Made by a program: the position numbers and the translations under genes. This document shows, in pieces, positions 38,362 through 64,000 of a stretch of DNA of 64,000 bases. The notes beneath the pieces are model-generated. The model was not told the origin of the DNA and did no database searches. It saw only the letters and a program-made list of their open reading frames with translations. The stretch's first letter is position 1, and each line of letters begins with the position of its first letter. This stretch comes from Moorella glycerini (GTDB taxonomy: Bacteria; Bacillota; DSM-521; Neomoorellales; Neomoorellaceae), in the NCBI RefSeq assembly GCF_009735625.1, contig NZ_CP046244.1, forward strand, positions 186,001 through 250,000, in the 5' to 3' direction.

Positions 38362-38703
38362 TTACACCCGGTACTGGGGTATCCCGCCACCCACCTGGGG
38401 CGCCATTCCCATCTGGGCTCCCATCATGCCGCCCTGCTGGAGCTGCATTTGTTCCTGTTGCAAGCGCTGTTGCAGCTGGCTGATCTCCTGCTGGCTGGCC
38501 ATGCTGAGCTGGTACCACCCTTTTGCATGCATAACATCCCACACAGCCTTCAGGCAGTTCTGCTCATCCTGGTAAACGGCCATAAAATCCCGCCGCAGCT
38601 GGTCGCTGGCACATTCCGTAATTGCCGTATTATAGCAGCTGGTTAAAAGCTTCTCGCTGGCCAGGCAATCGCTGCACATGGTCTTGTCGTCAAAAAGTTG
38701 CAT
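38362..38703 (-). CDS. cotF: CotF-family spore coat protein
   Basis: This 113-residue ferritin-like four-helix protein of the CotF family has CSDCLASEKLLTSCYNTAITECASDQLRRDFM and DEQNCLKAVWDVMHAKGWY. The tail is rich in Gln and Met, low complexity (QQEQMQLQQGGMMGAQMG). It lies in the spore coat in related species. A smaller paralogue lies 17 bases upstream. Confidence 0.9.
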   Translation of the reverse strand: MQLFDDKTMCSDCLASEKLLTSCYNTAITECASDQLRRDFMAVYQDEQNCLKAVWDVMHAKGWYQLSMASQQEISQLQQRLQQEQMQLQQGGMMGAQMGMAPQVGGGIPQYRV

Positions 38704-38720
38704 GGGCTTGCCTTCCCCCT

Positions 38721-38921
38721 TTACATCATATGCTGCCCGCCCAGGTGGCGGATCAGGGTATTATAGTGGCGCTGGTGGGCCTGCTGCACAGAACTCAGGA
38801 CTTGCTTCAACTGGGGATCGCTGCACTGGGCCGCGTAGGCCCCGAATTTCCGGATCATCAATAATTCGTTACTTAAATTTTCCCGGAGCTGCATTAATTC
38901 AGCCTGGGTTAAACCAGCCAT
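38721..38921 (-). CDS. Small CotF-like coat protein
   Basis: This 66-residue helical protein (AELMQLRENLSNELLMIRKF then AHQRHYNTLIRHLGG) resembles half of a CotF fold and is a typical partner of cotF in spore-forming clostridia. ATG has AAGGAGG upstream. Together the two genes form a sporulation operon. Confidence 0.82.
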   Translation of the reverse strand: MAGLTQAELMQLRENLSNELLMIRKFGAYAAQCSDPQLKQVLSSVQQAHQRHYNTLIRHLGGQHMM

Positions 38922-39039
38922 GGTATAGCCTCCTTCCGTATATTTATGTTACCAGGGATCATCTTTCCCCACCGGCAGGGGCCTATACATAAAAATGGTA
39001 ACCAATAAAAACCAGGCCGGGGCACGTACCCCGGCATCT

Positions 39040-39276
39040 CTAGTGAAATATTTTATTCAAGCGGTTTTCATCAAAACCTACAATTACCTGGCCGTCAACG
39101 ACCAGGGTGGGCACGGCCGCCAGGCCGCCATTACGCCGGCACAATTCCTCCATGGCCCGGTCATCCACGCTGATATCCTTTTCTTCATAGTTAACGCCTT
39201 GCCGGGAAAGATACTCTTTCACCGTCTTGCAGGTGGGTCAGGTCGGAGTAGTGTAGACTATGACATTATCTGGCAT
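39040..39276 (-). CDS. Selenocysteine glutaredoxin-like protein
   Basis: Read from ATG 39276 (GGGAGG 8 bases upstream) the frame is MPDNVIVYTTPT, an in-frame TGA (39238-39240), then PTCKTVKEYLSRQG and the rest of a glutaredoxin/NrdH-like fold ending AAVPTLVVDGQVIVGF. The TGA falls exactly where the first Cys of the CxxC redox motif of this family stands (YTTPTCPxC), so the product has U-P-T-C. A bulged hairpin fitting a bacterial SECIS lies directly after the TGA. Translated from the next start alone, the protein would lose its first strand and active site. The 78-residue protein is probably a thiol/selenol disulfide reductase. Selenocysteine machinery is not in the window but is known in Moorella. 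Confidence 0.85.
39203..39224 (-). promoter_or_regulatory. Candidate SECIS hairpin
   Basis: In the mRNA, 5 bp (GAAAG/CUUUC) cap a loop AGUAU, below which sits a bulged U (39221) and three more bp (CGG/CCG). A bulged U plus a GU in the apical loop is the known SelB-binding pattern in E. coli, there at bases 17 and 23-24 from the UGA; here they are at 20 and 27-28, with the same spacing between them. Confidence 0.7.
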
Positions 39277-39393
39277 CAGGCTAACCTCCCGGGAGACTTT
39301 TTTCTTAGTCTGCCAGGAAGCCGCAAGCTTTATGCCTTTGCCTGGAGCAAACCCGGCCAGCCACGTACGGCTACAGCATCGCTCCTTACCCTT

Positions 39394-40794
39394 CTACTTG
39401 CGTTTTAACAGGGAACCCAGGGCCGTTTTGGCGCTGCTTAAAGTTACACCGATAAAGCCGTACCCGCGCAGGATATCCTCCAGGGCCGCCAGCACCTGTT
39501 CAATCTCCCCTTCGGTGACAATCAAGGGCGGCTCCAGGCGGATAACATTGGGGTTATTTAACGTATAGGCCGTAATCACCTGGTGTTTATTCATCAATTC
39601 CCCGGCCACCAGGGACCCGAAATATTCCCCGGCCAGCTCATTCACCTTGCCCCGGGTAAGTTTGTCGAACCACCCTCCCACGGGCTGGTTAAACTCCAGG
39701 CCGATGAGGAGACCCCGGCCGCGGACTTCTTTAATGAGGCCATATTTCTCTTTAAGCTGCCGCAGCCGCTCCAGGAAGAAGCGCCCTCTGGCTGCCGCCT
39801 GACCTGCCAGGTCCTGGTCCAGGATGCCCTGCAGGGCCGCCAGGCCGGCGGCCGCCGCCAGGCTATTGCCGCCAAAGGTGGAAGTATGGAGCAAAGCCTT
39901 ATCCATGCCGCCGTAGGCCTTATCCCAGACAGCCGGCCGGGCAATATAAGCGCCAATGGGCATGACACCGCCGCCCAGGGATTTGGCCAGGCACATGATA
40001 TCCGGTACCACGCCCTCATGCTCGCAGGCAAAAAGATAGCCTGTCCGGCCAAAGCCCGTCTGGATCTCGTCGAGGATTAACAGGCTGCCGTAGCGGTCGC
40101 AGAGGTCCCGCGCCCCCTTCAAGTAACCGTCATGGGGGACAATAACGCCGCCCTCACCCTGGATGGGCTCGACGATAAAGGCAGCCACATCGCCACCGGC
40201 CAGTTTGGCCTCCAGGGCCTCCAGATCATCATACGGTACCGCCTCGCAGCCTGGCAGTAAAGGAGCAAAGGGACGCTGGTATTTCTCCCGCCCGGTGACG
40301 GACAGGGAACCAAAACTTTTGCCGTGGAAGGAATTCCGGCAGTAAATGATCTTCTCCCGGCCGGTGGCGGCCCGGGCCAGCTTCAGGGCGCCCTCCACAG
40401 CCTCGGTGCCGCTGTTGCAGAAAAAGACCCGCTCCAGGTCCCCGGGCGTCACCCGGGCCAGGTTGTGGGCCAGGGCGGCGGCCAGGGGATTCAAAGAGGC
40501 CTGGAGGAGATTGGGCCGCCCCATGACCCTTTTAACAGCGGCCAGTACCTCCGGCGGGTTGTGGCCCAGGTTGAGGGCACCATAGCCACCCAGGAAGTCC
40601 AGGTAACGTTTGCCCTCCCTGTCCCAGACGGCAATCCCTTCCGCCCGGACAAAGGCCTTGTCAAAATCCAGCAGGGCCAGCATACCCGCCAGGCCGGGAT
40701 TAACATAGCGGCGATATAATTCCCGCGTCTCCTGGCGGGAAAACTCCATGGCCTCTTCCAGGCTAAATAACTTTTCCTCAGCCAATCTCTTCAC
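39394..40794 (-). CDS. Class III aminotransferase (ornithine/putrescine-type)
   Basis: This 466-residue PLP enzyme has the class III signature: SLGGGVMPIGAY around the PLP lysine (CLAKSLGG), LILDEIQTGFGRTG, and YLDFLGGYGALNLGHNPPEV at the N-terminus. It transfers an amino group from ornithine, putrescine or a similar diamine to 2-oxoglutarate. The substrate is not fixed by sequence; the N-terminal helical extension (about 40 residues) resembles putrescine aminotransferases. The start is GTG behind AAAGGTAA. Polyamine genes speB and speE lie 8 kb away. Confidence 0.87.
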   Translation of the reverse strand: MKRLAEEKLFSLEEAMEFSRQETRELYRRYVNPGLAGMLALLDFDKAFVRAEGIAVWDREGKRYLDFLGGYGALNLGHNPPEVLAAVKRVMGRPNLLQASLNPLAAALAHNLARVTPGDLERVFFCNSGTEAVEGALKLARAATGREKIIYCRNSFHGKSFGSLSVTGREKYQRPFAPLLPGCEAVPYDDLEALEAKLAGGDVAAFIVEPIQGEGGVIVPHDGYLKGARDLCDRYGSLLILDEIQTGFGRTGYLFACEHEGVVPDIMCLAKSLGGGVMPIGAYIARPAVWDKAYGGMDKALLHTSTFGGNSLAAAAGLAALQGILDQDLAGQAAARGRFFLERLRQLKEKYGLIKEVRGRGLLIGLEFNQPVGGWFDKLTRGKVNELAGEYFGSLVAGELMNKHQVITAYTLNNPNVIRLEPPLIVTEGEIEQVLAALEDILRGYGFIGVTLSSAKTALGSLLKRK

Positions 40795-40870
40795 TTACCT
40801 TTCCAGAAAATAAAAATGACCTCAAGAGCCTTCTCTCAAGGCCATTTTACCATCTTTACCCGCTTTCTGT

Positions 40871-42259
40871 CTAATGGGTCTGGCAACAATTTTCCCCTTC
40901 CACCGCTACGGCCACAGCTTTTCCTTCTTCCGCCCAGATGCGGTCGGCCACCTCTCCCCAGGCCCGGGCATAGGGAGCCAGTTTGGCAGCAAACTCGGCT
41001 GCCGTCTCGTCATCATGCAACTGGGTCGAGCGGGCACCCGACTCGGCCACTATATCCCGCAGCATTTCCGGGTGATCAATGAGGGGGCAGGGACGGCGCA
41101 GGTTCTGGTTAAAGGGCTGGCGCTTCTGGTAGGCCCGGAAAAGGGGGTTCTGCAGGGCTTCCACCAGGCTCACATCCTTAATGTTGCAGGTGCTGTAGTG
41201 GACAAAGGCGCAGGGCTCGACTTCACCGGCCGCGTTAATATGGAAATAACGCCGGCCACCGGCGATACAGCCGTTGCTGGCCTCGCCGTCGTTCCAGAAG
41301 TCCACCAGGAAGATGGGTTTGGTCCGGCGGAAATACTGGATACGCTCAAACATCCAGGCCCGCTGCGATGGGGTGGCCATCATTTCCAGGTCCACGTCCT
41401 TGCCAATGGGGATATAGGTAAAATACCAGCCAAAGGCAACTCCTTTGTCCACCAGCATATCAACAAAGGCGTCGCTGCCCAGTTCCTCGGTATTATTGCG
41501 GCTGTAGGTTACCGAGACGCCATAGACGGCCCCGGCGGCCCGCATGAGGTCCATGGCCTGCATAACCTTGGCGAAAACACCTTTGCCGCGGCGGCCATCA
41601 GTCCTTTCCTCAAAACCTTCCAGGCTTAAGGCTACCGTAATATTACCCAGGCGCACCATATCGTCGACAAATTTTTGATCAATTAAAGTACCATTGGTAA
41701 AGAGGTGGAAAACCTGGTCAGGATGCTTCTCGGCCAGCCGGACAATATCGTCGCGGCGCAGCATGGGTTCACCGCCGGAAAGAACAATAAAATTAATGCC
41801 CAGCTTCTCGCCTTCGGTAACAATGCGGTCCATGGTAGCAAAATCCAGTTCTTGCGCCCGCTGGTAATCCCCAGCCCAGCAGCCCAGACAGTGCAAATTA
41901 CACTTTTCCGTTGGGTCCATGAGGATGGCCCACGGTACGGCGACACCGAGTTTCGCCGCCCACTCTTTCTGCCGCGGCACACCGATAAAGGTTGAATTAA
42001 CAAAGAAATCCATGGCCAGGCGCTGCCTGACATTGGGGTGGGTCTGAGTCAGCAGCCGCCGGGCAAACCGGTACCAGTTGCCATTTCTATCCGCTAAAAC
42101 TCTCTTAACATTGGCCACCATCTCCCGGTGATAAGGATCCCGGGCCAGCTTTTCAGCTACGGTAATCAGGCGGGGAATATTCTTTTCCGGGTTATTGAGG
42201 ATTAATTTAACCCCCTGCTCCAGCAACTTTTCCCCCACATAAGTTGCCGCCAGGTTCAC
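40871..42259 (-). CDS. Radical SAM protein with SPASM-like C-terminus
   Basis: This 462-residue protein has the radical SAM motif CNLHCLGC (about residue 125), then LSGGEPMLR and a second cysteine set (GCIAGG, EPCAFVHYSTC) that looks like a SPASM/twitch auxiliary cluster. The N-terminal ~100 residues are helical and the C-terminus ends CCQTH. No peptide substrate is visible beside it; the role is unknown. The GTG at 42259 with AAGGAGG 8 bases upstream is preferred to a TTG two codons earlier. A perfect 8-bp inverted repeat, TGGTAGCC/GGCTACCA, lies in the leader (42296-42330). Confidence 0.85.
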   Translation of the reverse strand: MNLAATYVGEKLLEQGVKLILNNPEKNIPRLITVAEKLARDPYHREMVANVKRVLADRNGNWYRFARRLLTQTHPNVRQRLAMDFFVNSTFIGVPRQKEWAAKLGVAVPWAILMDPTEKCNLHCLGCWAGDYQRAQELDFATMDRIVTEGEKLGINFIVLSGGEPMLRRDDIVRLAEKHPDQVFHLFTNGTLIDQKFVDDMVRLGNITVALSLEGFEERTDGRRGKGVFAKVMQAMDLMRAAGAVYGVSVTYSRNNTEELGSDAFVDMLVDKGVAFGWYFTYIPIGKDVDLEMMATPSQRAWMFERIQYFRRTKPIFLVDFWNDGEASNGCIAGGRRYFHINAAGEVEPCAFVHYSTCNIKDVSLVEALQNPLFRAYQKRQPFNQNLRRPCPLIDHPEMLRDIVAESGARSTQLHDDETAAEFAAKLAPYARAWGEVADRIWAEEGKAVAVAVEGENCCQTH

Positions 42260-42497
42260 GCGCAATACCTCCTTCCCAGCTTTATAAACACAAAATGGTA
42301 GCCCTTATGTCCTGTCAACGCCGGCTACCACCTCCCAAAACTCCCAAAAGACCAATTTTTGTTTTTATTATACGCTTCCGGCCATATCTGGTCAAGGGTT
42401 CCCTTGTGGGTAGAAAGTGCTTCTTATATTATTCTCCTTCAGGGTCAAAACTATCAAATGGACAGGGATTAGTACTGCAAAGGAGGGTTTTTAAAAA

Positions 42498-63553: not shown

Positions 63554-64000
63554 TCAAAGAAGATCCTTGACAAGATTATCCAGTTCTCCTGGCCCCAGGG
63601 GCCCCTGTTTGACCCGGCGGATCAGGCCCTGGCGGTCGATGATAAAGGTAGTGGGGATGCCGCCGACTCCGTAGCTCCGCGCTACCCGGCTGTCGTGGTC
63701 CAGGAGTACAAGGTAATTATGCTCCTTATTTCCCAGGAAGGCCCGGATGCCGGCCTCTGTCTCCCGCTGCATGATATTGATGGCCAGGACCTTTACCCCC
63801 CGGTCTGCCAGTCTCCCCGCCGCCGCGTCCAGTTCCTCCATTTCGGCGACACAGTAGGGGCACCAGGTGGCCCAGAAGTTCAATACTACCACCTGGCCCT
63901 TAAGGCTTGCTAGACTGACCTGGCCGCCATCCAGGACTGGCAGGGCAAAGGAGGGGGCCTGGACCTTGTTGCCCTGGCGTCCCGGCAGGATGAAGGAAGC
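63554..64000 (-). CDS. TlpA/ResA-like thioredoxin-fold protein, partial
   Basis: The frame runs to the window edge without a start. It encodes APSFALPVLDGGQVSLASLKGQ followed by VVLNFWATWCPYCVAEMEEL with a CPYC redox motif, and VGGIPTTFIIDRQG near the end. It is a membrane-bound or secreted disulfide reductase of the TlpA type; the N-terminal anchor would lie outside the window. Confidence 0.92.
   Translation of the reverse strand, partial: ASFILPGRQGNKVQAPSFALPVLDGGQVSLASLKGQVVVLNFWATWCPYCVAEMEELDAAAGRLADRGVKVLAINIMQRETEAGIRAFLGNKEHNYLVLLDHDSRVARSYGVGGIPTTFIIDRQGLIRRVKQGPLGPGELDNLVKDLL

Follow-up and report, generated by a model that had tools for sequence, protein, structure and literature searches.

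A glutaredoxin-like gene of Moorella glycerini predicted to carry selenocysteine in its active site

The locus and its predicted product

The stretch of DNA analyzed here, which we call the window, comprises 64,000 nucleotides of the Moorella glycerini genome (contig NZ_CP046244.1, positions 186,001 to 250,000 of the forward strand). On its minus strand lies an open reading frame of 78 codons (39276..39040) that contains a single in-frame TGA. This TGA is codon 13 and stands in the context TTPT-U-PTC when it is read as selenocysteine (Sec). The genes and features of this part of the window are as follows.

39040..39276, minus strand: predicted glutaredoxin-like selenoprotein gene, 78 aa with Sec (open reading frame, Pfam and NCBIfam matches, orthologues)
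39238..39240, minus strand: TGA codon, predicted to be read as Sec, at position one of the UPTC active site (conserved TGA, alignment with Cys)
39203..39224, minus strand: putative bacterial SECIS hairpin inside the coding region (fixed spacing, synonymous conservation, compensatory pairs, decay in Cys forms)
39285..39289, minus strand: GGAGG, a good ribosome-binding site, 8 nt before the ATG of this open reading frame (read from the sequence)
39394..40794, minus strand: class III aminotransferase, upstream neighbor (synteny conserved in Moorellaceae)
40871..42265, minus strand: radical SAM/SPASM protein, second upstream neighbor (synteny conserved in Moorellaceae)
38362..38703, minus strand: Coat F domain (spore coat) protein, downstream neighbor in most of the family

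The gene order radical SAM/SPASM protein, class III aminotransferase, redoxin gene, Coat F protein (38362-42265) is kept in most of the Moorellaceae loci examined.

A gene caller that is unaware of Sec would end the protein after 12 residues. When the TGA is read through, the product is MPDNVIVYTTPTUPTCKTVKEYLSRQGVNYEEKDISVDDRAMEELCRRNGGLAAVPTLVVDGQVIVGFDENRLNKIFH and matches the Pfam Glutaredoxin family PF00462 with an E value of 1.2e-16 and 61.1 bits, the gathering cut-off being 22.9, and the alignment includes both the UPTC motif and AVPT, in which VPT holds the cis-Pro. The protein also scores above the curated cut-off of NF041212, the "Uxx-star family glutaredoxin-like (seleno)protein" model (68.4 bits versus 66), and it retains the resolving Cys (UPTC). 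The best E value among the NCBIfam models (6.5e-24) was obtained with the YruB family, TIGR02196, but with C written for Sec the score of 84.2 bits falls slightly short of the curated cut-off, which is 88.55. For Uxx-star subfamilies 1, 2, and 3, the protein is far under the cut-off of each. The closest named loci are those of M. mulderi and M. stamsii, with 96% identity.

Conservation of the TGA codon and exchange with cysteine

Twenty-two genomes of the class were searched and the gene was present in 18 of them; in all 18 orthologues there is a single TGA, at the same codon by translation. A phylum-wide search of 398 genomes, 163 of which gave a match, added more TGA forms as well as open Cys forms, and the loci fetched from this search yielded a motif alignment of 58 TGA and 16 Cys homologues. 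Opposite the TGA, every one of the 16 homologues without a TGA has Cys. The TGA is therefore aligned with the catalytic Cys or with another TGA in homologues, which is what is looked for in a bacterial selenoprotein. The initial annotation had proposed that the TGA replaces the first Cys of a CPxC motif and had made this reading dependent on homologues with Cys or Sec at the position and on the presence of sel genes. The alignment agrees with the first of these expectations, and the genome agrees with the second.

In the profile search of the genome, selB was over the cut-off. Next to selB, an open reading frame reads as selA, an assignment made by eye from its sequence and not from a model match. 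A tRNA-Sec gene with anticodon TCA (UCA in the tRNA) adjoins selB as well. Both selD (L059, G000:C1:34016-34942) and a formate dehydrogenase were also over the cut-off, and the latter is likewise TGA containing. The set of selA, selB, selC, and selD that is sought in a genome encoding bacterial selenoproteins is present. The selD gene of this Moorella genome is a selenoprotein gene itself, with its own in-frame TGA in SCSSG-U-AAKMGPG. Among the searched genomes with a Sec form, selB was over the cut-off in all except G010, an assembly that is 58% complete.

It could be argued that the TGA is read by a route other than Sec insertion (near-cognate decoding, Trp, or similar) or that it is a true stop followed by re-initiation at the GTG at 39222, from which a mechanically called open reading frame of 60 aa does follow the TGA. 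A product started at this GTG would have neither the catalytic residue nor the first strand. Decoding as another amino acid is contradicted by the aligned Cys in 16/16 non-TGA homologues, by the presence of selB in essentially all genomes that have the TGA form, and by the complete Sec system and the further TGA-containing selenoproteins of this genome. We regard both versions of this explanation as very improbable and read the TGA as a Sec codon.

When the Sec or Cys state was placed as a label on the protein tree, seven changes were required, five of which are forced by well-supported branches, and this indicates that Sec/Cys interchange happened repeatedly. Two Cys homologues with a TGC/TGT codon still hold remnants of the hairpin described below: L051, from genome G208, keeps the full GTGAAAGAGTTTCTTTCC, and in L043, from genome G318, the loop G has become A. 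As selB is still present in both G208 and G318, Sec was apparently swapped for Cys recently in these two. At the other end of the family, distant TGA-bearing relatives (L086, L090, L092, L096, and L098 to L102) have a C-terminal extension beyond the redoxin domain. This extension contains CxxC and is zinc-ribbon-like, e.g., FSCEKCGTRMRVP; the protein in the window is without such a tail.

The hairpin downstream of the TGA

The RNA following the UGA is predicted to fold as CGG-U-GAAAGA-GUA-UCUUUC-CCG with a free energy of -9.6 kcal/mol, which places the GU loop 23 nt past the TGA. The initial annotation had described this element as a bulged hairpin with a U bulge and a GU loop at nearly the E. 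coli SECIS spacing. The hairpin and the loop hold, and so does the bulge in the window itself, but the bulge is not conserved: it is present in about half of the relatives, the others pairing this position with A or having a C-G pair. Since so many relatives pair or replace the position, a bulged U does not define the hairpin. As for the spacing, we take the distance from the UGA to the loop to exceed that in E. coli fdhF by approximately 4 to 5 nt. The hairpin nevertheless falls within the bacterial SECIS model, in which the element is expected 16 to 37 nt after the UGA with a G among the first two loop nucleotides and a minimum free energy of at most -7.5 kcal/mol (PMC13188914), the values in the window being 23 nt, loop GUA, and -9.6 kcal/mol.

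Judged from this one sequence, the hairpin is only modestly unusual, as 75 of 5,000 synonymous recodings fold equally well. Its folding z-score of -1.25 to -1.99 is too weak to prove a SECIS element, and for this reason comparative tests were used instead. A search of the hairpin against Rfam returned only weak chance matches.

Across the TGA forms the distance from the TGA to the GU loop is fixed at 23 nt, and the hairpin decays in the Cys forms. At codons +6 to +10 (GTG AAA GAG TWT CTT), synonymous sites are nearly frozen among the TGA forms, whereas they vary freely among the Cys forms. The Val codon at +6 is identical in 95% of the same-residue pairs of TGA forms, versus 29 to 34% for Val elsewhere. 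Of the six stem pairs, five show double substitutions that preserve pairing. The bacterial SECIS model fits 55 of the 58 TGA forms versus 2 of the 16 Cys forms (Fisher P = 1.6e-10), and 330 of 342 stem cells pair, compared to at most 322 in 500 shuffles, both being supportive figures only, because the sequences are related and most of the changes are rare. The comparative evidence as a whole points decisively to a hairpin that is under selection at the RNA level.

One might instead suspect a pseudogene or an artifact, with the TGA having arisen in a CPTC glutaredoxin gene of the ordinary kind by nonsense mutation or by an error in sequencing. In favor of this, a single base separates TGA from TGC/TGT, and the nearest Cys homologues (L043, L051, and L052) are intact genes. 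However, independent genomes share this TGA at identities as low as about 40%, with conservation of the protein that follows it, and the synonymous sites of the hairpin are frozen only in the TGA forms. With TGA in 18/18 class orthologues, we reject nonsense mutation, sequencing error, and true stop alike on conservation, and all three are practically excluded.

We are therefore highly confident, as far as comparison of sequences allows, that the gene encodes a small thiol-disulfide oxidoreductase of the glutaredoxin/NrdH-like type in which selenocysteine, which would be inserted via SelB and the hairpin, takes the place of the catalytic Cys (UPTC). This is in line with the small, glutaredoxin-like Sec redoxin that was initially proposed, given the glutaredoxin fold, the conserved TGA, the hairpin, and the full set of sel genes.

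Proposed mechanism and relation to known selenoproteins

During translation, SelB carrying Sec-tRNA(UCA) would bind the hairpin just 3' of the UGA, so that Sec is inserted and the ribosome does not stop. Once the protein is made, its selenolate, located where helix 1 begins, may attack a disulfide or another oxidized group on a partner; the mixed selenenyl-sulfide would then be resolved by the Cys three residues after Sec. The oxidized protein would then be re-reduced, probably by a flavoprotein of the thioredoxin reductase type and not by glutathione. We infer this cycle, as well as the donor of electrons and any substrate, from relatives, the attack by the selenolate and its resolution by homology to the Sec glutaredoxin-1 (cGrx1) of Clostridium oremlandii. 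Glutathione is the usual reductant of the glutaredoxin class (PMC7642778), but the protein described here probably does not work with it. The Gram-negative-type glutamate-cysteine ligase PF04262, the sole ligase family searched, was not found in the genome, two thioredoxin reductases (G000:C1:1162136 and 808208) were over the cut-off, and in genome G363 a Cys homologue lies immediately upstream of a thioredoxin reductase gene; together these point to a flavoprotein reductase as the donor. Beside the gene in the window, neither a thioredoxin reductase nor a peroxiredoxin is adjacent, so that the donor and the substrate are guesses. A gene of the peroxiredoxin family (AhpC-TSA) is present at 63614-63961 of the window and is the sole member of this family to pass the cut-off in the genome; its product is a plausible candidate substrate. 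Possibly, the redoxin could instead be a dedicated selenium-based reductant for a pathway of the neighboring radical SAM/SPASM protein and aminotransferase and not a general redoxin, but we consider this unlikely.

Among solved structures, the best match of the protein was the cGrx1 structure PDB 7c10 (phmmer, E = 5e-17). The entries 7c10, 7c12, and 7c13 are presumably the cGrx1 proteins of the paper on glutaredoxin-1 of Clostridium oremlandii. In this glutaredoxin the U(or C)PXC motif carries Sec natively (PMC7642778), and that Sec aligns exactly with the TGA of the window. The two systems differ in a possible partner, as cGrx1 was proposed to reduce a selenoprotein MsrA (PMC7642778), whereas a search of the M. 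glycerini genome did not find MsrA, and MsrA was for this reason rejected as a partner.

Within the genus, the reported selenoproteins of Moorella thermoacetica are SelD, two FdhA proteins, HdrA, FrhD, and a glutaredoxin (Zhang et al. 2006, PMC1794560). The latter is a Sec-containing protein from another species, with no apparent difference of kind from the one described here. The text of that paper gives the protein without a sequence; as each searched Moorella genome has at least one TGA-bearing orthologue, it is almost certainly the orthologue of the gene in the window. The biology of Sec glutaredoxins in Moorella and in clostridia has thus been published before, and the Sec glutaredoxin of Moorella was already known in kind and, it appears, as the same orthologous gene. 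What the locus offers is a clean comparative case, in which a single SECIS hairpin inside a coding region has stayed frozen throughout a phylum. Remnants of this hairpin persist in at least two Cys homologues, and this suggests that the replacement of Sec by Cys is ongoing in the family.
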